From NCBI RefSeq assembly GCF_000813745.1, contig NZ_JWLC01000020.1:124001-188000 (forward strand): a stretch of DNA of 64,000 nucleotides, written 5' to 3'. The notes beneath the pieces were generated by a model, which ran no database searches, was not told the DNA's origin, and saw only the letters and a list, made by a program, of their open reading frames with translations. Positions 18,191 through 32,170 of this stretch are shown here, one piece after another. A program made the position numbers and the translations under genes. The DNA comes from Leisingera sp. ANG-M1. Its GTDB lineage: Bacteria; Pseudomonadota; Alphaproteobacteria; Rhodobacterales; Rhodobacteraceae. The number at the start of each line of letters is the position of its first letter. Positions within the stretch are counted from its first letter, which is position 1.

Positions 18191-18548
18191 ATTATTGGAA
18201 TCGTGGAGCAAAACTTAAACAGCAGTGCAGGCTGACAAAGCATAGTTTCGTTGCGATACCGCAATTTGACGGCTTGGGCGTACAGCGCCCAACTTTTGGT
18301 CCCATCTGTATGTCCGTTTGCAGGAACTGCCAGACTTTGCAACGGCCGCTATCTGCGCACAGCGGACGCAAGTGGGTACCTAAGCAGCGCGTGCAACGGA
18401 TTTCATTTTCATTTTGCCGAGGCGCTTTGGAGGGAGAGTGGAACACGTAGATCCATCTCATTCCCGAAATCTGGGCAGGATTAAATAGGATTTGAGAATG
18501 CGTATTATATCAAATATGCCTGTGACAAACATGTTTGGAGCGATTCCC
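18191..18548. promoter_or_regulatory. Leader region of the haemoglobin/cbb3 gene run
   Basis: No gene is supported here. An inverted repeat, ATTTGA (18490-18495) and TCAAAT (18510-18515), lies 34-58 bases before the haemoglobin start, and GCGTATT/AATATGC half-sites overlap it. The spacing does not fit an FNR box (TTGAT-N4-ATCAA). It could be an operator for a nitrogen-oxide or redox regulator; this is weak. Confidence 0.3.
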
Positions 18549-18968
18549 ATGGCAGATACGCAGCCAAAGCGGCCTAAAATGTTCGACGTCACCGCGGCAG
18601 AGATCAGCAGGCTGGTCACGGTTTTCTATGCCCGCATCCGCCAGCATGAGGAATTGGGGCCAGTCTTTGATGCGGCGGTCGCCGACTGGCCTGCGCATGA
18701 GGCAAAGATCGCGGCGTTCTGGCGCGGGGCAATTCTGCGGGAGGAGGGATACAGCGGCAATCCGATGCAAATGCATCTGGCGAATACCGCGATCCTGCCT
18801 GAGCACTTTCCCCTCTGGCTGGATTTGTTCCGGGATACCGCACAGCGGGAGCTGGATCCGGAAACTGCGCATGCTTTTGCAAATCTCGCTGACCGGATCG
18901 GCAAGGGGCTGTCCTACGGGATTGAAAACTTCCGGCAGCCCGATGGGGCGCCTCCGGTTCTGACCTAG
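18549..18968 (+). CDS. Group III truncated haemoglobin
   Basis: This 139-residue protein matches group III truncated haemoglobins (trHb-P): FDVTAAEISRLVTVFYARIR, FWRGAILREEGYSGNP and the proximal-His region MQMHLANTAILPEHFPLWLDLF. Such globins bind O2 and NO and are linked to NO or nitrite stress. ATG 18549 follows TTTGGAG; two earlier in-frame ATGs (18498, 18525) would add residues not seen in the family. It heads the run leading to the cbb3 oxidase genes and lies 6 kb from the NO-reductase-like operon. Confidence 0.88.
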   Translation: MADTQPKRPKMFDVTAAEISRLVTVFYARIRQHEELGPVFDAAVADWPAHEAKIAAFWRGAILREEGYSGNPMQMHLANTAILPEHFPLWLDLFRDTAQRELDPETAHAFANLADRIGKGLSYGIENFRQPDGAPPVLT

Positions 18969-19063
18969 GCAAGCTGCTAGCGGCAGGGGCCGGGCAGTTC
19001 CTCAAATTATGGTAATGTTGAGTTCTCCATCTGTCCGGACGGCTGCAATAAAGGAGATTGGGA

Positions 19064-19801
19064 ATGACAGAAAATGTCTACTCCAAGGCGCGGGTGATCA
19101 CCGAGGATCCCGGACATGTCGTGCAGCGCTGGCTGATCGCCGGATGGCGGGACCTGCGGGGCAACCTCGGGTTTTCCTTGTTCTACGGCTTTGCACTGGT
19201 GCTGGCCGGCTGGGGGATGATCTGGTTCCTGGCAGCCAGCGGCATGGCTTGGATGCTGCTGCCGCTGCTGGCGGGCGGGGTGCTGGTGGGGCCGGTGGCA
19301 ACGGTGGGCCTTTACGCCGTGGCCAGCGGCAAGCGGGAGGTGGCCTCGAAAGGGCAGATTGCGCTGGTGGGGGCGATCCTGATGGTCTTTGCCTTGACCT
19401 GGATCCGGGCCGCCACGGTGCTGTTTGCCATTGTCTACGGGCTGCGCCCCTTTGCCGGTTTCACCGAGACGCTGCAGCTGCTGCTGAGCACGCAGGAAGG
19501 CTGGGTTTTGATGGTGGCGGGATCGCTGACAGGCGGGCTGTTTGCAGCGCTTGGCTTTGCGGTCTCGGCCTTTTCACTGCCGATGCTGGTGGACCGCAAG
19601 ATCGACGGCTTCTCGGCCATGGGGCTGAGCTTTAACGCCGCCACTCATAACTTCTGGCTTTGCGTCTGGTGGGGCGCGGCCATCACCTTCCTGACCGCCC
19701 TGGGCATTCTGACCGGACTGCTGGGGCTTGCGATTGTCTTTCCGCTGCTTGGCTACGCCACTTGGCATGCCTACGCGGATCTGTTCCATGGAGATGCATG
19801 A
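19064..19801 (+). CDS. DUF2189 polytopic membrane protein
   Basis: This 245-residue integral membrane protein has about six transmembrane helices and matches the DUF2189 family, often found beside cbb3 oxidase or haemoglobin genes in Rhodobacterales. ATG 19064 is preceded by AAGGAGATT. The stop is immediately followed by the DUF1971 start, so the genes are co-translated. The family has no proven function. Context suggests a role with the high-affinity oxidase or NO stress. Confidence 0.85.
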   Translation: MTENVYSKARVITEDPGHVVQRWLIAGWRDLRGNLGFSLFYGFALVLAGWGMIWFLAASGMAWMLLPLLAGGVLVGPVATVGLYAVASGKREVASKGQIALVGAILMVFALTWIRAATVLFAIVYGLRPFAGFTETLQLLLSTQEGWVLMVAGSLTGGLFAALGFAVSAFSLPMLVDRKIDGFSAMGLSFNAATHNFWLCVWWGAAITFLTALGILTGLLGLAIVFPLLGYATWHAYADLFHGDA

Positions 19802-20092
19802 ATGTCTGAGGCTCTTCCCAAAGGCGCGGTGCATTACGCCACCTCGCGGTTCACGCAGGACACCTTGCCGGAGAAACTGCGCCAGGATCACAGCACCAAG
19901 GCAGGCGTCTGGGGCCAGCTGGCGGTGCACAACGGCCGGCTGCGGTTCCGGCGCGAGGACAAGGCGGAGGTGATCGTTGAGGCGGGTGGCACCGCTGTCT
20001 TTGCCCCGCAGGAGGTGCATTCGGTCGAAGCGCTTGGCGCTGTGGAATTCGAGGTCCGGTTCCACCGGGAGGAGGCCCCCGATGCAGCGTAG
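19802..20092 (+). CDS. DUF1971 (TehB-like) small protein
   Basis: This 96-residue cupin-like beta protein matches the DUF1971 family (LPKGAVHYATSRFTQDTLPEKL, then VWGQLAVHNGRLRF and FAPQEVHSVEALG). Similar domains are fused to TehB tellurite proteins. It starts directly after the DUF2189 stop, with GGAG seven bases upstream inside that gene. It overlaps the start of ccoN by 11 bases. Biochemical function is not known; conserved His residues could bind a metal. Confidence 0.85.
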   Translation: MSEALPKGAVHYATSRFTQDTLPEKLRQDHSTKAGVWGQLAVHNGRLRFRREDKAEVIVEAGGTAVFAPQEVHSVEALGAVEFEVRFHREEAPDAA

Positions 20093-21701
20093 CGTGAATT
20101 TTGAAAATGCGGGCCTCCTTGCAGCCCTGTCCCTGGTGCTGCTGGGCGGGCTGGCCATTCTGGGCTGGGGCGTGCCGCTGGGATATGTGCTGCACGGCTG
20201 GCTGATTGCGCTGGCGGCGGGCTGGGGCATCCTGTGGATGCTGAACCGGATCAGCGACGGGCCGGCAGAGGTGCCGCTGGAATATAATGACAAGGTCATC
20301 CGCTACGGTGTCATTGCGGCGCTGATCTGGGGGATCATCGGCTTTGCGGTGGGAGACATCTTGGCATGGCAACTGGCCATTCCGTCGCTCAACGGCGATA
20401 TGTCCTGGTCTAATTTCGGGCGGCTGCGGCCGGTGCATACCTCAGGCGTCATCTTCGGCTTTGGCGGCAACGCGCTGATCGCCACATCCTTTTACGTGGT
20501 GCAGCGGACCTCGCGGGCGCGGCTGGCCAGCGAAACGCTGCCCTGGCTGGTGTTCTGGGGCTACAACCTGTTCCTGGTGGTGGCCGCCTCCGGCTATCCG
20601 CTGGGCATCACCCAGTCCAAGGAATACGCCGAGCCCGAGTGGTATGCGGATCTGCTGCTGCTGGTCATCTGGATCGGCTATCTGATCCTGTACCTGCGCA
20701 CGCTGGCGCGGCGGGCCGAGCCGCATATCTACGTGGCCAACTGGTACTACCTGGCCTTCATCGTGGTGATTGCGATGCTGCACACGGTGAACAACCTCTC
20801 GGTGCCGGCCTCGATCGCCTATCCCAAGAGCTATTCGCTGTTCTCCGGCACCCAGGATGCGATGACACAATGGTGGTACGGCCACAACGCAGTGGGCTTC
20901 CTGCTGACGGCCGGTTTCCTGGGGATGCTCTATTACTTCCTGCCCAAGGCGGTGAATCGGCCGGTCTATTCCTACCGGATGTCGATTGTCGGCTTCTGGG
21001 GGATTACGTTCCTCTACCTTTGGGCCGGCTCGCATCACCTGCATTACACGGCCCTGCCGGATTGGGTGCAGTACCTGGGCATGACCATGTCGATTATCCT
21101 GCTGGTGCCCAGCTGGGCCTCGGTCTTCAACGGCATCCTCACCATCAACGGCGCTTGGGACAAAGTACGCACCGACCCGGCGGTCCGCTTCATGATGGTG
21201 GCGGTGCTGTTTTACGGGCTGTCGACATTCGAGGGCTCCTTCATGGCGATCCGCCCGGTGAACTCGCTGAGCCATTACACCGACTGGACCGTGGGCCATG
21301 TGCATGCAGGTGCCTTGGGCTGGGTCGCCTTCATCACCTTTGGCGCCATGTACAAGATGGTGCCTTGGGTCTGGAAGCGCGAAGGGGTCTATTCGCTGAA
21401 GCTGGAGGCCTGGCACTTCTGGCTCGCCCTGTCGGGCACGCTGATCTACGTCGGCGCGATGTGGAACAGCGGTATCACCCAATCGCTGATGTGGCAGACC
21501 TATGATGCCGATGGCGCCTTTCTCTATTCCTTCCTCGACAGCGTGATCGAGATGCACCCCTACTACGTGGCCAGGGCGGTCGGCGGGCTGCTCTACCTGA
21601 TCGGGGCCTGCATCGGCGCCTACAATATCTACATGACGGTGAGCGGGCCGCGGAAAACCGAGACCCGGCAAACCGGGCCCCTGGCCCAGCCTGCGGAGTA
21701 A
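20082..21701 (+). CDS. ccoN: cbb3-type cytochrome c oxidase subunit I
   Basis: This 539-residue subunit has the standard CcoN length. It carries the low-spin and high-spin heme and CuB histidines (RPVHTSGVIFGFGGNALIATS, GHNAVGFLLTAGFLGM, GSHHLHYTALPDW, GHVHAGALGW). In helix VII a Tyr sits six residues before the His-His pair (YLWAGSHH), the place of the cross-linked tyrosine in C-type oxidases. ATG 20082 sits inside the end of the DUF1971 gene behind GGGAGGAGG. It is the catalytic subunit of a high-affinity terminal oxidase. Confidence 0.97.
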   Translation: MQRSVNFENAGLLAALSLVLLGGLAILGWGVPLGYVLHGWLIALAAGWGILWMLNRISDGPAEVPLEYNDKVIRYGVIAALIWGIIGFAVGDILAWQLAIPSLNGDMSWSNFGRLRPVHTSGVIFGFGGNALIATSFYVVQRTSRARLASETLPWLVFWGYNLFLVVAASGYPLGITQSKEYAEPEWYADLLLLVIWIGYLILYLRTLARRAEPHIYVANWYYLAFIVVIAMLHTVNNLSVPASIAYPKSYSLFSGTQDAMTQWWYGHNAVGFLLTAGFLGMLYYFLPKAVNRPVYSYRMSIVGFWGITFLYLWAGSHHLHYTALPDWVQYLGMTMSIILLVPSWASVFNGILTINGAWDKVRTDPAVRFMMVAVLFYGLSTFEGSFMAIRPVNSLSHYTDWTVGHVHAGALGWVAFITFGAMYKMVPWVWKREGVYSLKLEAWHFWLALSGTLIYVGAMWNSGITQSLMWQTYDADGAFLYSFLDSVIEMHPYYVARAVGGLLYLIGACIGAYNIYMTVSGPRKTETRQTGPLAQPAE

Positions 21702-21706
21702 CGCCC

Positions 21707-22438
21707 ATGAGCACAGCACATCAGAAGCTTGAACGCCATTCGCTGGGATTTGCCATGATGATCCTGGTCGTGGCCTCGATCGGCGGCATTGTGGAAATTG
21801 CACCGCTGTTCACCATCGAAAACACGGTGGAGGAGGTCGACGGCATGCGGCCTTATACACCGCTGGAGCTGGCCGGGCGCGACATCTATGTGCGCGAGGG
21901 CTGCTATGCCTGCCACAGCCAGATGATCCGCACCCTGCGATCGGACGTGGAACGCTACGGGCATTACAGCCTGGCCGCCGAAAGCATCTATGACCACCCG
22001 TTCCAATGGGGCTCGAAACGCACCGGACCGGACCTGGCCCGGATCGGCGGCAAGTATTCGGATGACTGGCATGTGGCGCATCTGGAGGCGCCGCGCGAGC
22101 TGGTTCCCGGTTCGGTGATGCCTGGCTATGCCTTCCTGTCTGACACCCGTTTGTCCACCGGCCACCTGCCTGCGGCGCTGAAAGCGCTGAGCCGGGCAGG
22201 GGTGCCCTACACGGACGCCCAGATCGAAAACGCCGAAAAGGACGCGGTCTGGCAGGCGGATTTCGAGCAGAACTATGAGGGCGAGCTGCAGGAGAGCTAT
22301 GGCGCAAACGTGCAGGTCCGCGACTTTGATGGCCAGCCCGGGCGGTTAACGGAAATGGACGCACTGGTGGCCTATCTGCAGATGCTGGGCACCCTGGTCG
22401 ATTTCGACTCACTGAACATGGAGGAGGTGAACCGATGA
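21707..22438 (+). CDS. ccoO: cbb3-type cytochrome c oxidase subunit II (monoheme)
   Basis: This 243-residue protein has one transmembrane helix (residues 13-33) and a single heme c site CYACH at residues 66-70. A MPGYAFL loop supplies the axial Met. It passes electrons from CcoP to CcoN at the periplasmic face of the inner membrane. It starts 5 bases after ccoN and its stop overlaps the ccoQ start (ATGA). Confidence 0.96.
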   Translation: MSTAHQKLERHSLGFAMMILVVASIGGIVEIAPLFTIENTVEEVDGMRPYTPLELAGRDIYVREGCYACHSQMIRTLRSDVERYGHYSLAAESIYDHPFQWGSKRTGPDLARIGGKYSDDWHVAHLEAPRELVPGSVMPGYAFLSDTRLSTGHLPAALKALSRAGVPYTDAQIENAEKDAVWQADFEQNYEGELQESYGANVQVRDFDGQPGRLTEMDALVAYLQMLGTLVDFDSLNMEEVNR

Positions 22439-22602
22439 CCCATGATGCAGTATTGGTTTTCTCCAAGACCTGGGGTGCGATCTACCTGCTGACCGTCTTT
22501 CTGGCTGCGGTGGTCTGGGTCTACTGGCCCTCGCGGCGGCGGATGTACGACGATGCGGCGCAGTCCCCGCTGGACGGGCGGGAGGACCAGCCATGGCGGT
22601 AA
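22435..22602 (+). CDS. ccoQ: cbb3 oxidase small subunit CcoQ
   Basis: This 55-residue protein has one transmembrane helix (WGAIYLLTVFLAAVVWVYWP, residues 13-32) and a charged C-terminus. Its size, topology and position between ccoO and ccoP identify it as CcoQ, which stabilises the oxidase complex. It overlaps ccoO by 4 bases and ccoP by 10 bases, so all are co-translated. Confidence 0.92.
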   Translation: MTHDAVLVFSKTWGAIYLLTVFLAAVVWVYWPSRRRMYDDAAQSPLDGREDQPWR

Positions 22603-23465
22603 GGGAAAAGGATCCGGTCTCGGGTACCGAGCTGACGGGCCACGAGTGGGACGGGATCAAGGAGATGGACTCGCCGGTACCCTGGGCCTCCCGCTGGGCG
22701 CTGTGGATCAGCATAGCGGTGTCGGTCCTTTACTGGATCCTCTACCCGTCCTTTCCGCTGGTTTCGGAGTATGCACGGGGCGTGCTTGGCTATTCCTCGC
22801 GGGCAGAGGTGACGGCAGCGGTGACCGCGGCGGATGCCGGGCGGAAGCAGGCCTTTGCGCCGTTTGCCTCCGAAGACATTGAGGCCCTGGCTGCGGACAC
22901 ATCGCTGGAGGCGCGTTATGGCGCGTCTATCGCCAAGCTCTACGCGGACAATTGCGCGGCTTGCCATACCGAGAACCTGAAGGGGCAGCCCGGGTTCCCC
23001 AGCCTGGCGGACGGGCATTGGCTGTGGTCAGGCACCCCGGAAGAGATCGAGTACACTATCCGCTATGGCATTAACACCCTGCATGACGAGACGCGGATTG
23101 CCCAGATGCTGGCCTTTGGCGCCGACGGGATGATCGAAAAGCCGCAGGTCAAAGAGGTGACTGAATTTGTGCTGTCGCTGTCAGGGCAAGACCATGATGC
23201 GGTGGCGGCTGAGGCGGGCAGGGTGGTTTTTGAAGAGAACTGCGCCTCCTGCCATGGCGATGACGGCCGTGGCGGCTATGAAAACGGCGCGCCGGATCTG
23301 GGGGATGGCCATTGGATCTACGGCGGCAGCCGGGAGGACATCTATCAAAGCGTCTATTACGGCAGGCAGGGAGTCATGCCCGCCTGGGAAGGCCGGTTGA
23401 GCGATGCGCAAATCCGGATGCTGACGCTCTATCTGCTGTGGAACGCTGAAGATGCCCCAAGCTGA
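22593..23465 (+). CDS. ccoP: cbb3-type cytochrome c oxidase subunit III (diheme)
   Basis: This 290-residue protein has an N-terminal FixP-type region (GIKEMDSPVPWASRWALWIS) and a transmembrane helix (about residues 33-52). Two c-type heme sites follow, CAACH (121-125) and CASCH (217-221). It receives electrons from soluble cytochrome c. ATG 22593 is inside the end of ccoQ. No ccoGHIS assembly genes follow in this window, so maturation factors must be encoded elsewhere. Confidence 0.96.
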   Translation: MAVREKDPVSGTELTGHEWDGIKEMDSPVPWASRWALWISIAVSVLYWILYPSFPLVSEYARGVLGYSSRAEVTAAVTAADAGRKQAFAPFASEDIEALAADTSLEARYGASIAKLYADNCAACHTENLKGQPGFPSLADGHWLWSGTPEEIEYTIRYGINTLHDETRIAQMLAFGADGMIEKPQVKEVTEFVLSLSGQDHDAVAAEAGRVVFEENCASCHGDDGRGGYENGAPDLGDGHWIYGGSREDIYQSVYYGRQGVMPAWEGRLSDAQIRMLTLYLLWNAEDAPS

Positions 23466-23661: not shown

Positions 23662-24117
23662 TCAAGCAGCTCCGCGGCCCGCCTCCAGCGCCCGAATCAG
23701 GTTCTTCATGCCGCGGTTTCCGTTCAGAACATCCTGCAAAGTCTTGCTGTCGAGCGCGGCAAAGAACACTTCCTGCGCTTCGTTCAGAATCGGCAGCAGC
23801 CCGCAGGCCGGAGTCATCACGCAGCAGCCGCCATCCTCTTTCATGCACTCCACCAGCGGTGTGCCGCGTTCGGATTTGCGCAGCAGCCCGCCGATGGAGA
23901 TCGCCTCCGGCGGCAGCGCCAAACGCATGCCTCCATTGCGACCGCGGATGGATTCCACATAGCCCTCGTGGGTCAGCCACTGGGAGATTTTGGCCAAGTG
24001 GTTGAAGGGCAGGTTCTGCATCCCGGCGATCTCGCGGGTCGACATCAGCCCCTCCTCGTGAGTGGCGAGGTGGATCAGGATGCGCAGGGCGTAGTCTGAG
24101 AACTTGGTGATCTGCAT
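23662..24117 (-). CDS. nsrR: Rrf2 family repressor, NsrR-like
   Basis: This 151-residue protein matches Rrf2 regulators: MQITKFSDYALRILIHLATH at the N-terminus and winged helix residues LPFNHLAKISQWLTHEGYV. Cys91, Cys98, Cys99 and Cys105 lie in the iron-sulfur ligand loop. NsrR uses three such Cys to hold an NO-sensitive cluster. The gene is divergent from the CuA/heme-copper operon, with operator-like repeats between them. NsrR is preferred over IscR or RirA because of that context; sequence alone does not fully separate them. Confidence 0.82.
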   Translation of the reverse strand: MQITKFSDYALRILIHLATHEEGLMSTREIAGMQNLPFNHLAKISQWLTHEGYVESIRGRNGGMRLALPPEAISIGGLLRKSERGTPLVECMKEDGGCCVMTPACGLLPILNEAQEVFFAALDSKTLQDVLNGNRGMKNLIRALEAGRGAA

Positions 24118-24134
24118 AAGCGTTCATCCCACAA

Positions 24135-24161
24135 AAAATACGTTTTGAAAATACGTATTTT
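24135..24161. promoter_or_regulatory. Candidate Rrf2/NsrR operator 1
   Basis: AATACGT (24137-24143) and ACGTATT (24153-24159) form an inverted repeat, and AAAATACGTATTTT (24148-24161) is a perfect 14-bp palindrome. The site lies 18 bases upstream of the nsrR-like start, so it could serve autoregulation and control of the divergent operon. A/T-rich dyads of this size fit Rrf2-type operators. Confidence 0.6.
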
Positions 24162-24191
24162 ATTGACTCGGGCTGGGCGTAGCAAATAATA

Positions 24192-24210
24192 GGCATTGAA
24201 AATACCGATT
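24192..24210. promoter_or_regulatory. Candidate Rrf2/NsrR operator 2
   Basis: GGCATTGAAAATACCGATT repeats the pattern of operator 1 (CGTTTTGAAAATACGTATT, 24141-24159) with most bases identical and a shared TTGAAAATAC core. The two copies are 51 bases apart, about five helical turns. This copy ends just before the ribosome site AAGGGAG of the CuA subunit gene, so a bound repressor would block transcription. Confidence 0.55.
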
Positions 24211-24224
24211 AAGGGAGACTGCAC

Positions 24225-24734
24225 ATGCAGCCAGTTGTTCTATTGATCTCGCTGATCCTGATGGCGGCGCTGACGGCGGCCTTCTGGCTGGCGGCCCGTG
24301 CGTCGCGCGGGGAAGCGCCCGGTCCGAAGGCAAACAGCAAACGCACCGGTTTGATCTGGGCGATGACAATCGCGGGCGTAATCATCTCTGTTGGTTCGCT
24401 GCGGCAGTGGCCGCATGCGCTGGCCAGCACCGGCGATGCGCTGGAGGTGCACGTCAGCGGCGGCCAGTGGTGGTGGGATATCGACACTACCGAAATCCCG
24501 GCCGGAACGCCGGTCAATTTCAATGTGACAACCGAGGACGTGACCCACGGCATGGGCATCTATGACAGCGGCCTCACGCTGCTGACCCAGGTGCAGGCGA
24601 TCCCCGGCTATACCACCAAGGTCACCTACACCTTCACAGAACCGGGGACCTATCAAGTTCTGTGCATGGAGTTCTGCGGAGTGGCCCACCACGACATGGT
24701 CAATGAATTCGAAGTTGTAGCGGCGGAGGAATAA
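24225..24734 (+). CDS. CuA-containing subunit II of a heme-copper NO reductase-like complex
   Basis: This 169-residue subunit has two transmembrane helices (residues 3-23 and 43-58) and a periplasmic cupredoxin domain. All CuA ligands are visible: His108, Cys147, Glu149, Cys151, His155 and Met158 (CMEFCGVAHHDM). It is shorter than the subunit II of aa3 oxidases. AAGGGAG precedes ATG 24225. It is adjacent to the catalytic subunit gene with no gap and to a SCO chaperone gene that probably loads CuA. It should take electrons from a soluble cytochrome or cupredoxin. Confidence 0.88.
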   Translation: MQPVVLLISLILMAALTAAFWLAARASRGEAPGPKANSKRTGLIWAMTIAGVIISVGSLRQWPHALASTGDALEVHVSGGQWWWDIDTTEIPAGTPVNFNVTTEDVTHGMGIYDSGLTLLTQVQAIPGYTTKVTYTFTEPGTYQVLCMEFCGVAHHDMVNEFEVVAAEE

Positions 24735-26207
24735 ATGAGCACTGCATCTGAACCTGCTGCGGCCGGGCATGCCGCAGTTGAACCCTCAGCGGCCCCTCAG
24801 GCCGGAGCGGTCAAGCTGACGATGATCCTGTCGGGCGCGGTTTTTGCGCTGATGATGGTCTTTGGCCTGATCATGCGCGCGGCCCAGGGCCAGTGGATCG
24901 AGCTGGACCCGGCGCTGTTCTATCAGATCCTGACCGCGCATGGCGCGGGCATGGTCGGCACTGCGGCGCTCTCGGGCGCGGCCATCCTGTGGTATTTCAG
25001 CGGCCGCCATGTGGTGCTGACCGCGGGTATCTTCTGGGCCTTCCTTGGCCTGTTCCTGCTGGGGGTCGTGCTGATCCTGGGCGCGATCTTCGTCGGCGGC
25101 TACGGCGGTGCTTGGACCTTCCTGTTCCCGCTGCCCGCCCTGTCCGGCGGCGCCTGGGAAGCTGGGGCAGCCGCGGCCTTCATGTTGGGCTATGTCTCCA
25201 TTGGCGTCGGCTTTCTGCTGTATTATCTTGAGCTTGGCCGCCAGATCCATGCCCGTTACGGCAGTCTGGCGCGGGCGCTTGGCTGGAACCTGATCCTGGG
25301 GCGCGAGGACAAAAACCCGCCGCCGCCGACCATCGTAGCCGCCGCAGCTGTGACCATCTTCAACTCGATCGGCATCATCCTGGGTGCAGCCGTTCTGGTG
25401 GCCAGCCTGGTGCATCTTCTGGTGCCGGGGTTCGAGGTCGACGCGCTTCTGGCCAAGAACCTGATCTATTTCTTCGGCCATGTCTTCATCAACGCCTCGA
25501 TCTATATGGCGGTGACAGCTGTCTACGAGATCCTGCCGGAATACACCGGGCGTCCGTGGAAATCGAACCGGCTGTTTGCCATTGCCTGGAATGCGGTGCT
25601 GATCTTCGTGATGGCGGTCTACTGGCACCACCTGCTGCAGGATGTGGTGATGCCGCCCTGGATGCTGGTGGTGGGGCAGCTGGTCTCCTACTTCAGCGGC
25701 ATTCCCCTGATCGCGGTCACGGCCTTTTCCACCTTCCTTTATGTGCGCGGTTCCAGGATGACCTGGGACCTGGCGTCATCGCTCTTGGTGCTGTCGGTGG
25801 CAGGCTGGTCGGTGGGGTCGATCCCGGCTTCCATCGACGGGATGATCAGCGTCAACAAGGTGATGCATAACACCATGTGGGTGCCGGGGCACTTCCACAC
25901 CTACCTGCTGCTGGGCGAGGTTGCGATGGCCTTTGGCTTTATGGCCTGGCTGGTGCGCGGCAAAACGATCTCGCAGATGGGCGGTTTGGATCGTGCGGCC
26001 TTTGTCACCTATCTGGCGGGTGCGGCTGGCTTCGTGACGGTGTTTCTGTTCTCGGGTGCCGCCTCGATCCCGCGCCGCTGGGCGGTGCATTACGAGGAGT
26101 GGCTGACCCATGACCGCATCGGCACCCTGTTCAGTGTGCTGGTGGTGCTGGGGACGATGGTTTTCGTGCTGCGCTTCGTGGCGCGGCTGGGGCGGAGCGG
26201 CGACTGA
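24735..26207 (+). CDS. Heme-copper subunit I lacking the active-site tyrosine, probable NO reductase
   Basis: This 490-residue, roughly 12-helix protein belongs to the heme-copper oxidase superfamily. His69 and His388 should bind the low-spin heme, His386 the high-spin heme, and His249, His298 and His299 the active-site metal. In A/B-type oxidases the cross-linked Tyr is four residues after the first metal His; here that position is Asn253 (HVFIN). In C-type oxidases it is six residues before the His-His pair; here that is Val292. The lack of both tyrosines argues against O2 reduction and for NO reduction. The pattern agrees with my memory of the proposed sNOR family, which I cannot verify here. 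Confidence 0.85.
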   Translation: MSTASEPAAAGHAAVEPSAAPQAGAVKLTMILSGAVFALMMVFGLIMRAAQGQWIELDPALFYQILTAHGAGMVGTAALSGAAILWYFSGRHVVLTAGIFWAFLGLFLLGVVLILGAIFVGGYGGAWTFLFPLPALSGGAWEAGAAAAFMLGYVSIGVGFLLYYLELGRQIHARYGSLARALGWNLILGREDKNPPPPTIVAAAAVTIFNSIGIILGAAVLVASLVHLLVPGFEVDALLAKNLIYFFGHVFINASIYMAVTAVYEILPEYTGRPWKSNRLFAIAWNAVLIFVMAVYWHHLLQDVVMPPWMLVVGQLVSYFSGIPLIAVTAFSTFLYVRGSRMTWDLASSLLVLSVAGWSVGSIPASIDGMISVNKVMHNTMWVPGHFHTYLLLGEVAMAFGFMAWLVRGKTISQMGGLDRAAFVTYLAGAAGFVTVFLFSGAASIPRRWAVHYEEWLTHDRIGTLFSVLVVLGTMVFVLRFVARLGRSGD

Positions 26208-26806
26208 TGCTGGCTCGGGTTCTCCCCTCAGTTCTCGCCGCCGCGGTCGGTGGCGGGATTCTGTGGCAGGCCACTGACGGGGCGCAGGCCTTCACCAGCG
26301 AGGCGGCCCGTCGGCTGGATGTGGTGCGCGCGCCCCGTGCCGTTCCGGAGGTGCGGCTGGAGGATATGGCCGGCCGGCAGGTGCCGCTGCTGCCGCAGGC
26401 GGGCGAGGTGGTGCTGGTTGAGTTCATCTACACGGTCTGCGGCGATATCTGCCAGATTGCCGCCGCGGACTTTGCCGAGATCCGCGACCGCCTGCAGGCG
26501 CGGGGGCTGAGGGTCCGGCTGCTCTCGGTCAGCTTCGACCCGGAGCGGGACACGCCGGAGCAGATGGCGATCTATGGCGATGCGCATGACGCTGACGGCG
26601 CCATGTGGACCGTTGCGCGGCCATTGCAAAAGGATCTTCCGGACCTGCTGGAGCTGTTTGACGTGACCGTCATCCCGGATGAATGGGGCGGCTACCAGCA
26701 CAATGCCGCGATCCATGTGATCACCAGCGATAGCCGGTTTTCCGCCGTCTATGACACGGATGCGGTGGAAGCCGTGCTGGCCCATGTCGGCGGGGTGCAG
26801 CCATGA
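26207..26806 (+). CDS. SCO1/SenC family copper chaperone
   Basis: This 199-residue protein has an N-terminal anchor or signal (residues 1-20) and a thioredoxin-like SCO domain. The copper motif CGDIC lies at residues 78-82 and the third ligand His165 in YQHNAAIHV. SCO proteins deliver copper to the CuA site of subunit II. It overlaps the stop of the catalytic subunit by one base and the next gene by four. Its presence supports a functional CuA centre in this complex. Confidence 0.92.
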   Translation: MLARVLPSVLAAAVGGGILWQATDGAQAFTSEAARRLDVVRAPRAVPEVRLEDMAGRQVPLLPQAGEVVLVEFIYTVCGDICQIAAADFAEIRDRLQARGLRVRLLSVSFDPERDTPEQMAIYGDAHDADGAMWTVARPLQKDLPDLLELFDVTVIPDEWGGYQHNAAIHVITSDSRFSAVYDTDAVEAVLAHVGGVQP

Positions 26807-27363
26807 GGATGATCTGCCTCGCCCTGCTTGCCTTTGCCGAAGCGGTTGCGCTGCGGGAGGCGGCAGTGGCCAGCCCGGTCCAGCATGTTCTGGTGCAGAT
26901 GCCCTTGCTGGTGCTGGCAGGTTTCATGGCGGCCTGGGACCTGAAAGCGCCGCGCGGCTGGGCTGTGCCGTTGCTGCTGTTGGCGCTGACCGCTTTCCTG
27001 TTCTGGATGCTGCCGCGCAATGTGGACTGGGCGCTGTCCCTGGCGGGAGAAGCGGCCAAATACATCACCCTGCCGCTGCTGCTGGGACTGCCCCTGCGAC
27101 TCTCCTGGCCCTGGCTTGGCCCCATTCTGCGGGGCTTTTTGAAAGCCAATGCGCTGTCGATGCTGGGGGTGCTCGGGTTCCTTTACACCCACGCGCCGGT
27201 GCGGATCTGCAATTCTTACCTGGTTTCAGCCCAGCAGGACCTGGGTTTTGCCTTCCTTTACCTTGCCGCGGCTCTGGCCTGCCTCTGGGCTATCCCGGTT
27301 TTGTTCGGGCATCCGCGCTGCGGGCCGCTTGGCGCAGCCGGATGCTCAAGATGCGGAGCTTGA
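26803..27363 (+). CDS. Polytopic membrane protein with Cys-rich C-terminus
   Basis: This 186-residue protein has about five hydrophobic segments and ends in HPRCGPLGAAGCSRCGA. It contains a QHVLVQMPLLVLAG segment that faintly recalls CtaG-type oxidase assembly proteins, but the match is not strong enough to name it. It overlaps the SCO gene by 4 bases, so it is part of the operon. The Cys cluster and single His could bind copper. A role in assembling the heme-copper complex is likely from context only. Confidence 0.7.
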   Translation: MRMICLALLAFAEAVALREAAVASPVQHVLVQMPLLVLAGFMAAWDLKAPRGWAVPLLLLALTAFLFWMLPRNVDWALSLAGEAAKYITLPLLLGLPLRLSWPWLGPILRGFLKANALSMLGVLGFLYTHAPVRICNSYLVSAQQDLGFAFLYLAAALACLWAIPVLFGHPRCGPLGAAGCSRCGA

Positions 27364-27369
27364 AGTGAC

Positions 27370-28209
27370 ATGACCTATGCCGAAACCGTCCTGGGATTTG
27401 CGCAGCTGGCGCAGAAGAAGGGGGAGGCTCTGCGGAACGATCTGCTGGCCTTTCTGATCCTGGCCATGAAAGCGGGTGCATTTGTTGGCGCGGGCATCCT
27501 GCTGATCTTTTCCGTGGGGCAGGGGGTGGACGGTGCTATCCGGCCTATCGTGATGGGCGCGAGCTTTGGGATCGCGCTGACGCTGGTGGTGTTTGCAGGC
27601 GCCGAGCTGTTCACCGGCCACACCATGTATATGACCCACGGCCTGCTGACCGGGCAGAGCGGGCTGGGCGATCTTTTGCGCTGTTGGGCGGCCAGTTGGG
27701 CGGGCAACCTGGCGGGCGCCCTGCTGCTGGCGCTGCTGTTCGTGGCAGGTGGCGGGGGCCTGATCCTGGGCGCGGGCGAAGACGCGCTGCTGTACAAGGT
27801 GGCGGCCAAGAAGATGCACGGAACCGGTCTTCAGCTCTTTGCCAAGGCGGTGCTGTGCAACTGGTTGGTCTGCCTTGCCTTATGGTGTTCGGCGCGGGCC
27901 AAGGATGACGTGACTAAATGCATTGTGATCTTCTGGTGTCTCTACGCCTTTATTGCTGCCGGTTTCGAGCATAGCGTGGCCAATATGACCGTGTTCTCAT
28001 TGGCGCTGCTGTCCAGCCACCCGGACAGCATCTCGGTCGCGGGCGCAGCCCATAACCTGCTGTTTGTCACCTTGGGCAACGCTGCCGCCGGCGTCGGCAT
28101 CATGGGCTACGGCTACTGGCGTGCTGCCTCCCGCCCGCGGGTTCCGGGCGTCGCGCCGGTTCCGCCGGCCAACAGCAGCATTGAACAAAACAGGCAGCAA
28201 AATGGCTGA
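27370..28209 (+). CDS. Formate/nitrite transporter family channel
   Basis: This 279-residue protein has six transmembrane helices with the FNT pattern (KAGAFVGAGILL, AELFTGHTMYMT, NWLVCLALWCS, AGFEHSVANM, NLLFVTLGN). FNT pentamers conduct formate, nitrite or hydrosulfide. In an operon with an NO-reductase-like enzyme, nitrite (NirC-like) is the more likely substrate. It starts 6 bases after the previous gene and overlaps the next one by 8 bases. Confidence 0.88.
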   Translation: MTYAETVLGFAQLAQKKGEALRNDLLAFLILAMKAGAFVGAGILLIFSVGQGVDGAIRPIVMGASFGIALTLVVFAGAELFTGHTMYMTHGLLTGQSGLGDLLRCWAASWAGNLAGALLLALLFVAGGGGLILGAGEDALLYKVAAKKMHGTGLQLFAKAVLCNWLVCLALWCSARAKDDVTKCIVIFWCLYAFIAAGFEHSVANMTVFSLALLSSHPDSISVAGAAHNLLFVTLGNAAAGVGIMGYGYWRAASRPRVPGVAPVPPANSSIEQNRQQNG

Positions 28210-28714
28210 AAATCAAATGCCAGCCGGTGCCGCCTGCACAAAGGTAGGCCCCCCGGCTGCCAAGGGAATCGAAAACGCCGCCCGGAGTCTGTTATTCACC
28301 TGGGCTGGCGGAGCAATTGCCGGCAATATGATCGCGGCGCCCGCCAAATTCCAGGCGCCGTCTCTGACACTGCCGGTGGCGTTGGAGGTGGGCCGGGCGC
28401 AGTTCTTCTGGCTCGGCGTGGCCGAAGCTGTTTGTGCTTGCGCGCTCCTGCTGCTGCTGTGTGCTGCGCGGCGGCGCCCCTCCTTGCCCCTAGCGGCGGC
28501 CCTGAGCCTGTTTGCAGTGCAGAGGTTATGGATCATGCCGGTTCTGGACACTCGAACCCTTGCCATCATCACCGGCGGACAGGTGGCGGAAAGTTCTTTC
28601 CATCTGGTCTATGTCGCTTGCGAAATACTGAAAATCTGTTGCCTGATCTGGGCAGGCTCCGGGGCAAAGCCAGCGAAAATGGCAGCCTTGTCCCGCTCAG
28701 CCGTCTTTCTTTAG
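28202..28714 (+). CDS. Small membrane protein, DUF4149-like
   Basis: This 170-residue protein has four hydrophobic helices with the layout of DUF4149/TMEM205-type proteins (LLFTWAGGAIAGNMIAAP near the start, then AQFFWLGVAEAVCACALLLL and an ESSFHLVYVACEILK helix). The start ATG 28202 lies inside the end of the FNT gene and was chosen over a longer frame from 28064, which would be antiparallel to coding evidence. It is the last gene of the operon. Function unknown. Confidence 0.65.
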   Translation: MAENQMPAGAACTKVGPPAAKGIENAARSLLFTWAGGAIAGNMIAAPAKFQAPSLTLPVALEVGRAQFFWLGVAEAVCACALLLLLCAARRRPSLPLAAALSLFAVQRLWIMPVLDTRTLAIITGGQVAESSFHLVYVACEILKICCLIWAGSGAKPAKMAALSRSAVFL

Positions 28715-29212: not shown

Positions 29213-29448
29213 AGCCGAGCTCCTTCCAGAAACATCGGCCATCGCACGCGTTCATTCCGTAGAGCCTACAGACGTCTTTGATCGGTGATGTGGACGAGAC
29301 AATAAAGTTGCTAAAGGCGAAACGGTCCATCCCGGATGCGAACAGGCATGCAATTTTGACCCCTTAGTGGGGAAATCGGCGTTCAAAAATGACCCCCTTA
29401 CACCGATGTGAATCATGCCCCCGAGGTTATCGGGGAGCACAGATTGGG

Positions 29449-31017
29449 ATGTTGGTCGTGGAGACGATAGCAAAGATCCGGCGCGCGTGTTTTCAGGACA
29501 GGAAGCCGATCAAGCAAATCTGCCGGGAACTGCTGGTATCGCGGAATACGGTGCGGAACGTGGTCCGGTCGGGTGTGACGGAAGTGACCTACGAACGCAG
29601 GGTTCAGCCTCTGCCAAAGATCGGGCCGTGGAAAGACAAGCTCGAAGAGATGCTGGCGGCGAATGCGAGGAAGCCAAAGCGCGAGGGGTTAACCCGCATC
29701 CGGATCTTCGAAGAACTGAGAGCCCTTGGATATGACGGCGTCTATGACGCTGTCCGGCGTTACGCGGCCACGTGGTCCAAGGAAGAACAAGAGGCCTCCG
29801 CGGCCGCCTATGTCCCGCTGATTTTCGATCCGGGCGAGGCCTGCCAATTTGACTGGAGCCACGAGATTGTTGTGATCGACGGCGCGGCCACCACTGTGAA
29901 GGTGGCGCATGTCCGGCTCTGCCACAGCCGCATGCTGTTTGTCCGGGCCTATCCGCGCGAGACGCAGGAGATGGTGTTCGATGCCCATGACAAGGCCTTC
30001 GCCTTCTTCAGCGGGGCCTGCACGCGCGGGATCTACGACAACATGAAGACGGCGGTAGACACGATCTTCGTTGGCCGCGACCGGGCCTACAATCGGCGCG
30101 TCCAGCAGATGTGCGGGCATTATCTTGTCGATCCCGTTGCCTGCACACCGGCGTCTGGCTGGGAGAAAGGGCAGGTCGAGAACCAGGTCGGCGTTGTCCG
30201 GCGACGCTTCTTCGTGCCCAGGTCCAAGTTTAAGAGTTACGCCGAACTCAACGCCTGGCTCGAGGACCGCTGCGTTGCTTGGGCCAAGTCCCATCCGCAT
30301 CAGGAGCTTCGAGACCGCACGATCTGGGAGGTTTTCGAGGACGAGCGGGCGAGTCTGGTGCCATACGTCGGCCCCTTTGATGGTTTCCACGCTGTGCCGG
30401 CATCAGTCTCGAAGACCTGTCTCGTCCGGTTCTACAAAAACCGCTACTCGGTGGATGGCCGCGCCGTCGGCCGGCCAGTCGAGATCCGCGCCTATGCCGA
30501 GCGGGTCGAGTTCTGGCGGGACGGCAAGATCGTAGGGCGGCATGAACGAGCCTTCGGGCGCGACAAGGCCATCTACGATCCGCTGCACTACATCCCGGTG
30601 CTGGCCCGGAAGCCTGGCGCTCTCAGGAATGGGGCTCCCTTCAAGGACTGGGAGCTGCCATCAGCGATCAGGCGCATTCAGCGCAAACTGGGCAAGGTGC
30701 CCAATGGCGACCGGCAGATGGTCCAGATCCTGAGCATGATCCCCACCGATGGGCTGGGTGCAGTGGATGCTGCCTGTGCCGAAGCGCTGAACGAAGGGCC
30801 CCCCGCGGCCTCGGTCGTCATCAACATTCTGGCCCGGCATCGTCAGCCGCCGCCGCCGCTGACCATCGATACGCCCGACGCGCTGCGACTGACCTGCGAG
30901 CCCGTGACCGACTGCAAACGCTATGACAGCCTAAGGAGACACATCCATGGAAAGATCACAGGTGCTGGACGCGATGACCCAGCTGAAGCTCTACGGCATG
31001 AAGGCCGCCTACGATGA
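29449..31017 (+). CDS. istA: IS21 family transposase IstA
   Basis: This 522-residue transposase has an N-terminal HTH (KQICRELLVSRNTVRNVVRS) and a DDE integrase core: Asp in CQFDWSHE, Asp in GIYDNMKT and Glu in GQVENQVG. A C-terminal Mu-type domain follows. ATG 29449 was chosen as the usual IstA start. The gene looks intact, but its partner istB is broken, so the element is probably immobile unless helped in trans. Confidence 0.93.
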   Translation: MLVVETIAKIRRACFQDRKPIKQICRELLVSRNTVRNVVRSGVTEVTYERRVQPLPKIGPWKDKLEEMLAANARKPKREGLTRIRIFEELRALGYDGVYDAVRRYAATWSKEEQEASAAAYVPLIFDPGEACQFDWSHEIVVIDGAATTVKVAHVRLCHSRMLFVRAYPRETQEMVFDAHDKAFAFFSGACTRGIYDNMKTAVDTIFVGRDRAYNRRVQQMCGHYLVDPVACTPASGWEKGQVENQVGVVRRRFFVPRSKFKSYAELNAWLEDRCVAWAKSHPHQELRDRTIWEVFEDERASLVPYVGPFDGFHAVPASVSKTCLVRFYKNRYSVDGRAVGRPVEIRAYAERVEFWRDGKIVGRHERAFGRDKAIYDPLHYIPVLARKPGALRNGAPFKDWELPSAIRRIQRKLGKVPNGDRQMVQILSMIPTDGLGAVDAACAEALNEGPPAASVVINILARHRQPPPPLTIDTPDALRLTCEPVTDCKRYDSLRRHIHGKITGAGRDDPAEALRHEGRLR

Positions 31018-31819: not shown

Positions 31820-31900
31820 TCCCAAGGCGCTGTTCCGACACTTTCATTTCGCTGCGTATCAGCTCGATGCAGGCGCGCCGACGGGCGGGGCTCAGAAGTT
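31820..31900 (-). pseudogene. Stump of IS3-family orfB transposase
   Basis: Just after orfA, in a shifted frame, the translation reads LLSPARRRACIELIRSEMKV, the usual start of the IS3 OrfB protein. The resemblance stops after about 25 residues and the sequence passes into the primase-like frame. The limits given are approximate. Confidence 0.6.
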
Positions 31901-32170
31901 TCCCCGAGCCGCCTCCTTCAGGATGAGTTTGTCCAAGGTCAGGTCCGAGACGGCTTTCCGCAGCCGTTCGTTCTCCTTCTGAAGCCGTTTGAGTTCTTTC
32001 AGTTGGTCGGTTCCCATCCCGCCATACTGTTTGCGCCAGCGGTAGTAGGTCTGCTCAGTGATGCGCACTTCGCGGATCGCATCCACGCGCTGCATCCCCT
32101 GGCCGACAAGCACATCAACTTGCCGCAGCTTCTGAACTATTTCCTCCGGCTTGTGCCGCTTGTTCGCCAT
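31892..32170 (-). CDS. IS3-family transposase OrfA
   Basis: This 92-residue HTH protein (KPEEIVQKLRQVDVLVGQGM, then TYYRWRKQYGGM and a Leu-zipper-like tail) is the IS3 OrfA. The gene itself is complete. Its partner orfB is cut after about 25 codons, so the insertion sequence is dead. Its start lies 18 bases from the stop of the hydantoinase gene on the same strand, so the element landed right behind that gene. Confidence 0.88.
   Translation of the reverse strand: MANKRHKPEEIVQKLRQVDVLVGQGMQRVDAIREVRITEQTYYRWRKQYGGMGTDQLKELKRLQKENERLRKAVSDLTLDKLILKEAARGNF

Follow-up and report, generated by a model that had tools for sequence, protein, structure and literature searches.

A norSY-senC-orf1 cluster of Leisingera sp. 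ANG-M1 is assigned to the sNOR family and encodes asparagine in place of the active-site tyrosine

The window, a stretch of 64,000 nucleotides from Leisingera sp. ANG-M1, carries a norSY-senC-orf1 cluster which, judged by its sequence, is a member of the described sNOR family. NO is probably the main physiological substrate of NorSY (a probability of about 0.78), with the sNOR probably removing NO. The family assignment follows from Asn253 of NorY, the phylogeny, the norSY-senC-orf1 order, the 88.9% identity of NorY to the megaplasmid copy of Ruegeria pomeroyi DSS-3 (a species which we take to be the former Silicibacter) and the listing of Silicibacter as an sNOR host. An earlier note, which had read norY from the DNA letters as encoding the catalytic subunit of a non-canonical CuA nitric oxide reductase, had named the sNOR-type group tentatively, and the asparagine, the phylogeny, the gene order and the Ruegeria identity bear this out. 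What this analysis adds is the confirmed sNOR assignment, together with candidate operators and counts of gene neighbourhoods; in other respects, the cluster is an unremarkable member of a family that is described but under-studied. The features are collected in Table 1.

Table 1. Position of the sNOR cluster, its candidate control sites and the adjoining cbb3 operon in the window.
Feature	Position	Strand	Description
ccoN-ccoO-ccoP	20079-23465		cbb3 oxidase operon, upstream of the sNOR cluster
NsrR-like Rrf2 repressor	23662..24117	-	PF02082, E 7.4e-33; Cys91, Cys99, Cys105
Candidate NsrR operator 1	24138..24158	+	21-bp dyad, upstream of the -35
Candidate norS promoter	24163..24190	+	TTGACT-16-AATAAT, 10/12 matches
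Candidate NsrR operator 2	24189..24209	+	21-bp dyad, starts where the -10 ends
norS	24225..24734	+	CuA subunit II, 169 aa, full CuA ligand set; Pfam COX2 E 1.2e-7; NCBIfam CoxB E 5.2e-25, under cut-off
norY	24735..26207	+	haem-copper catalytic subunit of sNOR, 490 aa, ATG start, Asn253 replacing the active-site Tyr
senC/SCO	26207..26806	+	copper chaperone, 199 aa; Pfam SCO1-SenC E 1e-15; CxxxC and His
orf1 of norSY-senC-orf1	26803..27363	+	186 aa, hydrophobic
Formate/nitrite transporter	27370..28209	+	PF01226, E 1.7e-62; closest NCBIfam model NirC, 259.6 of 293 bits

NorY shows a near full-length match to Pfam COX1 (PF00115, E 9.6e-45), and its only NCBIfam matches, CtaD (39.2 of 670.75 bits) and SoxB (32.7 of 700 bits), are both far under cut-off. 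In an alignment of NorY with 38 other rows, including ba3, His69, His249, His298, His299, His386 and His388 align with the haem and CuB ligands of ba3, and Asn253 aligns with Tyr237 of the T. thermophilus ba3 oxidase (1EHK). This column holds asparagine in 24 of 24 other sNOR rows and tyrosine in six of six B-type and four of four A-type rows; NorY shows Asn253 where the cross-linked tyrosine of A/B-type O2 reductases is due, four residues past the first CuB histidine. Six residues before the His-His pair, where a tyrosine would presumably be the cross-linked one of C-type (cbb3) oxidases, NorY has Val292, which aligns with the tyrosine of the window's own CcoN; the sNOR rows have valine (22/24) or alanine (2/24) at this position. 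Translation and alignment found all eight residues where the earlier note had placed them, and its central observation stands, since the comparison with oxidases gave no tyrosine at an equivalent active-site position, whether of the A/B type or of the C type.

The six histidines are invariant in all 85 full-length relatives (83 distinct, as two pairs are identical), and position 253 is asparagine in 84 of them and X in one. The set was made up of 80 loci, the best of 153 relatives, plus L008-L011 and L013; two self-matches and the broken, short copy L012 were left out. In L012 (8001-9415, on a Parasedimentitalea marina plasmid), the norY match is split in two with a longest ORF of 357 aa, and the incomplete gene table of the plasmid shows no CDS for it. 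Tyr296, two residues before the His-His pair, was considered as a stand-in tyrosine; it is tyrosine in 63 of the 85 relatives and is not a strictly kept substitute, because the other 22 have phenylalanine. Among Tyr244, Tyr248, Ser309 and Thr312 of ba3, which we take to be K-path residues, part is lost in NorY (Tyr244 to Val260, Ser309 to Leu325) and part is kept (Tyr248 as Tyr264, Thr312 as Thr329). The T. thermophilus ba3 oxidase, a B-type enzyme, thus resembles NorY in its haem and CuB ligands and differs at Asn253, Val260 and Leu325; ba3 oxidases are also the best PDB sequence matches of NorY. A structure model of NorY (mean pLDDT 85.5) matched haem-copper oxidases in general with Foldseek, with query TM of 0.70-0.81 and identities of 14-21% in the 50 rows listed, and among these rows the comparison did not tell subfamilies apart.

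A phylogenetic tree of 39 rows groups NorY with sequences of Ruegeria, other Alphaproteobacteria, Rhodocyclaceae and the ammonia oxidisers Nitrosospira and Nitrosovibrio, in a clade apart from the A-, B- and C-type oxidases sampled. This phylogeny, proposed earlier as a check, places NorY outside the sampled O2 reductase clades, and an ordinary cytochrome oxidase is ruled out by the active-site residues together with the tree. In 100% of 200 bootstrap trees, a branch separates the sNOR set from the other rows; the branch that leads to T. roseum and the sNOR rows together is supported at 92/99 and is not starred. The program flags NorB and T. roseum as long branches, and the rows are without bNOR. 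NorY is about 51% identical to the NorY of Nitrosospira and Nitrosovibrio, and its nearest named relative is that of Leisingera sp. ANG-Vp (99%, among the best 80 of 153 relatives). In table A4 of PMC8756737, which goes back in modified form to Hemp and Gennis 2008, sNOR is entered with N as active-site residue, 0 proton channels and the hosts Betaproteobacteria, Silicibacter, Deinococcus and Geobacillus. CuANor of Bacillus is entered there with N as well, and the asparagine alone therefore cannot decide between the two. The norSY-senC-orf1 gene order is described for ammonia oxidisers in PMC4940428. The record of the R. pomeroyi orthologue gives no NOR name and labels the protein a cbb3-type oxidase subunit I, just as the earlier note had expected automatic annotation to call such a protein a cytochrome oxidase.

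The genes form a tight run, with the NsrR-like Rrf2 gene divergent from norS, norY, the SCO gene, orf1 and the formate/nitrite transporter gene. NorS has His108, Cys147, Glu149, Cys151, His155 and Met158, which we take to be the CuA ligands; 78 or 79 of 80 relatives share each of them. The ligand set of subunit II is complete, in agreement with the earlier reading. The SCO chaperone, also named there, keeps its CxxxC motif and histidine (79, 79 and 78 of 79 relatives), and orf1 gave no family match in Pfam or NCBIfam. Ahead of ccoN, window positions 18492-20092 contain the gene of a protein that resembles the annotated group III truncated haemoglobin of R. pomeroyi, without a Pfam match, and then DUF2189 and DUF1971 genes; R. 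pomeroyi shows the same order minus DUF1971. Just downstream of the cluster are a transposase-like gene with an integrase core and a Mu-type C-terminus (29389-31017) and a transposase-like HTH_Tnp_1 fragment (31892-32170).

Gene neighbourhoods were counted in 80 loci, the best 80 of 153 relatives, and distant sNORs are therefore under-represented. Gene calling by GC position missed norY in five of the 80 loci and served only for spotting neighbours, not for the counts. In these 80 loci, norS adjoins norY (at 250 nt or less, or as an overlapping extended ORF) in 79, the SCO gene is present in 79 and orf1 in 77. Of the 74 loci with enough room, 30 carry an NsrR-like gene divergently at 1.5 kb or less, and three carry it upstream on the same strand; five of the 80 have it downstream within 3 kb. 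Eighteen of the 80, all beta- or gammaproteobacterial by record title, show a different regulator, a PAS and sigma-54 activator with a Cys motif, which is possibly another NO or redox sensor. It is upstream of norSY on the opposite strand in 17 of the 18 and downstream in L070; in the two copies read (L059:5896-7302 and L073:5763-7145, both on the minus strand), the motif is C-x8-C-x3-C-x5-C. One or the other regulator is present in 57 of these 80 loci; 23 show neither the sigma-54 activator nor, within 3 kb, an NsrR-like gene, some of them for want of DNA. Within 2.5 kb of norY, 47 of the 80 have a gene of the nitrite channel family (42 downstream, five upstream), 28 lack one despite enough DNA, and five end too soon; such a gene also adjoins the T. 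roseum copy.

The sNOR clusters of ammonia oxidisers share with the window the subunits, the gene order, the active-site asparagine, the CuA subunit, the SCO gene and orf1, as well as a nitrite transporter downstream in Nitrosovibrio (L081); PMC4964001 describes such a transporter after norSY-senC-orf1 in Nitrosospira briensis, like many ammonia oxidisers. They differ in the identity given above for Nitrosospira and Nitrosovibrio, and no NsrR-like gene was found near the ammonia-oxidiser loci L081 and L090. The operon of R. pomeroyi DSS-3 (SPO_RS20765-20740), on the megaplasmid, is the same as in the window, and genes for cbb3, DUF2189 and truncated haemoglobin precede it there too; what sets it apart is its oxidase label.

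The earlier note had also proposed an NsrR-like repressor, and this holds at the level of the models: the Rrf2 protein is over the cut-off of the Rrf2 superfamily model (102 of 73.3 bits), and NsrR is its top-scoring curated model but under cut-off (105.4 of 182 bits; RirA, 92.4 of 193). In addition to the Rrf2 fold match, the protein has three cysteines, each present in 39 of 40 relatives, with a spacing of x7/x5. The cysteines of B. subtilis NsrR are similarly spaced. Two dyads flank the candidate norS promoter, promoter-like sites being found twice in 23900-28400 against 0.8 expected, and the dyad pattern twice in the window against 0.01 expected. The 21-bp pattern is present in 24 of 33 upstream regions (the window and 32 more, among them the near-identical L014), a count that is partly circular, as the pattern was drafted from those regions. 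A whole-genome scan is fairer, though the window region was among those read: in the 5.37-Mb genome, both norS dyads are the two best matches, with two mismatches each, and three mismatches yielded two other sites; the reversed-pattern control gave one per strand. The dyad was also considered as the mark of a genome-wide regulon, and at up to three mismatches no site was found at norCB/nnrS (contig C3) or nirK (contig C18). The divergent NsrR-like gene and the two candidate operator dyads suggest a regulation that points to NO.

The host genome also contains NorC-NorB-NorQ-like genes (L005), so named by reading, the only family hit among them being a COX1 match. The cNOR NorB presumably catalyses the same reaction, 2 NO to N2O; unlike norY, its gene is adjoined by a NorC-like cytochrome c gene, as read, and not by a CuA subunit gene, and in the tree NorB is a long branch whose place is unsure. 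NorY is without the NorB glutamates according to PMC6967387. Furthermore, the genome has NnrS, a Cu nitrite reductase (NirK) over cut-off, two aa3/caa3-type oxidases and a second cbb3. The sNOR is rare: counting the window's own genome each time, it occurs in four of 149 genomes of the order sample and in five of 385 of the class sample. A tight linkage between sNOR and NirK was not seen: NirK is over cut-off in one of the five sNOR-bearing genomes, namely the window's, versus 23 of 385 in the class sample. The enzyme is thus not simply part of the denitrification set, and NO detoxification seems to fit it better than a role in denitrification.

In the pathway that we infer, cytochrome c would be the electron donor and the CuA of NorS the point of electron entry. 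Electrons would then pass in NorY from the low-spin haem (His69/His388) to a site formed by the second haem (His386) and a metal, presumably copper, at CuB (His249, His298, His299). Without a cross-linked tyrosine to donate an electron and a proton for O-O cleavage, this site would convert 2 NO to N2O, and SenC would serve in copper loading. The NsrR-like repressor, as a putative NO sensor, would bind the dyads on either side of the promoter and shut the operon until NO damages its iron-sulfur cluster; the neighbouring FNT channel would transport nitrite.

The loss of the tyrosine, the NsrR-like control and the neighbouring nitrite channel were counted for NO as the substrate. Against it were counted the adjoining cbb3 operon, the norCB-like genes already present, the dyad pattern with no site at norCB/nnrS or nirK, the 23 of 80 loci without either regulator, the NirK link not seen and the Bacillus enzyme being filed as bNOR. 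PMC11388526 places sNOR among the NORs proposed but not biochemically characterised, and files the purified Bacillus CuA-NOR as a characterised bNOR; PMC3475470 gave the name sNOR to that purified, NO-reducing CuA enzyme of B. azotoformans, in which the tyrosine is likewise changed to asparagine and which comes with a CuA subunit and a linked SenC gene. One rival reading is a high-affinity O2 reductase working without the cross-linked tyrosine, for O2 limitation and tolerant to NO. PMC6967387 argued that the sNOR of N. europaea may be a high-affinity O2 oxidase, from transcriptomics (its genes are up 2.7-10.8-fold under O2 limitation) and resemblance to B-type enzymes; the same paper cites indirect evidence of NO reduction in Nitrococcus. 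The cbb3 operon next to the sNOR cluster, in the window and in R. pomeroyi, and the best PDB matches being ba3 oxidases also speak for such an enzyme. However, asparagine replaces the tyrosine found in all ten A/B-type rows compared, the control is NsrR-like and the clade is separate from the sampled O2 reductases, and we regard this explanation as quite unlikely. A variant of it, in which the tyrosine-less enzyme would physiologically reduce O2, with the NO-sensing repressor as a switch that allows respiration at NO levels poisoning the adjoining cbb3, appears decidedly improbable.

A bifunctional NO/O2 reductase, whose NO removal would matter while O2 is present, agrees with the aerobic NO reduction suggested for the sNOR family in the literature and with neighbour genes that cover both O2 and nitrite handling, and may be called unlikely. 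That NorSY belongs to the B-family bNOR/CuA-NOR and not to sNOR is hardly credible: the asparagine at the same position in CuANor (PMC8756737 table; PMC3475470 for B. azotoformans) and a similar cluster with SenC reported for CuA-NOR (PMC3475470) favour it, but NorY shares about half of its residues and one clade with the NorY of Nitrosospira and Nitrosovibrio (in a tree with no named bNOR row), the norSY-senC-orf1 order matches sNOR, and Silicibacter is listed under sNOR (PMC8756737). By description, the B. azotoformans enzyme is further set apart by an extra 46-aa membrane subunit and the use of menaquinol (PMC3475470), and CuA-NOR has 1 proton channel versus 0 in sNOR (PMC8756737 table). 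The eNOR enzymes are likewise haem-copper NORs related to B-family oxidases, with a cupredoxin subunit II and no active-site tyrosine (PMC11388526, PMC8756737), but have glutamine for asparagine (PMC8756737). A plasmid of Thermus thermophilus TF28 (L105, 4282-6978) contains a haem-copper gene with glutamine at the tyrosine position, annotated as a ba3-type oxidase, that adjoins an Rrf2 gene and is near nirS; its product looks eNOR-like and in the tree falls with the B-type rows, not with NorY.

Removal of NO by an sNOR is the reading that we prefer. Where genes like norY are annotated as cytochrome oxidases, surveys would undercount NO reduction and N2O formation, a point already in print (PMC11388526, PMC8756737). 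With their dedicated NsrR-like repressor and their two clear candidate operators, the copies of marine Roseobacter would be convenient for deciding between NO and O2 in sNOR.
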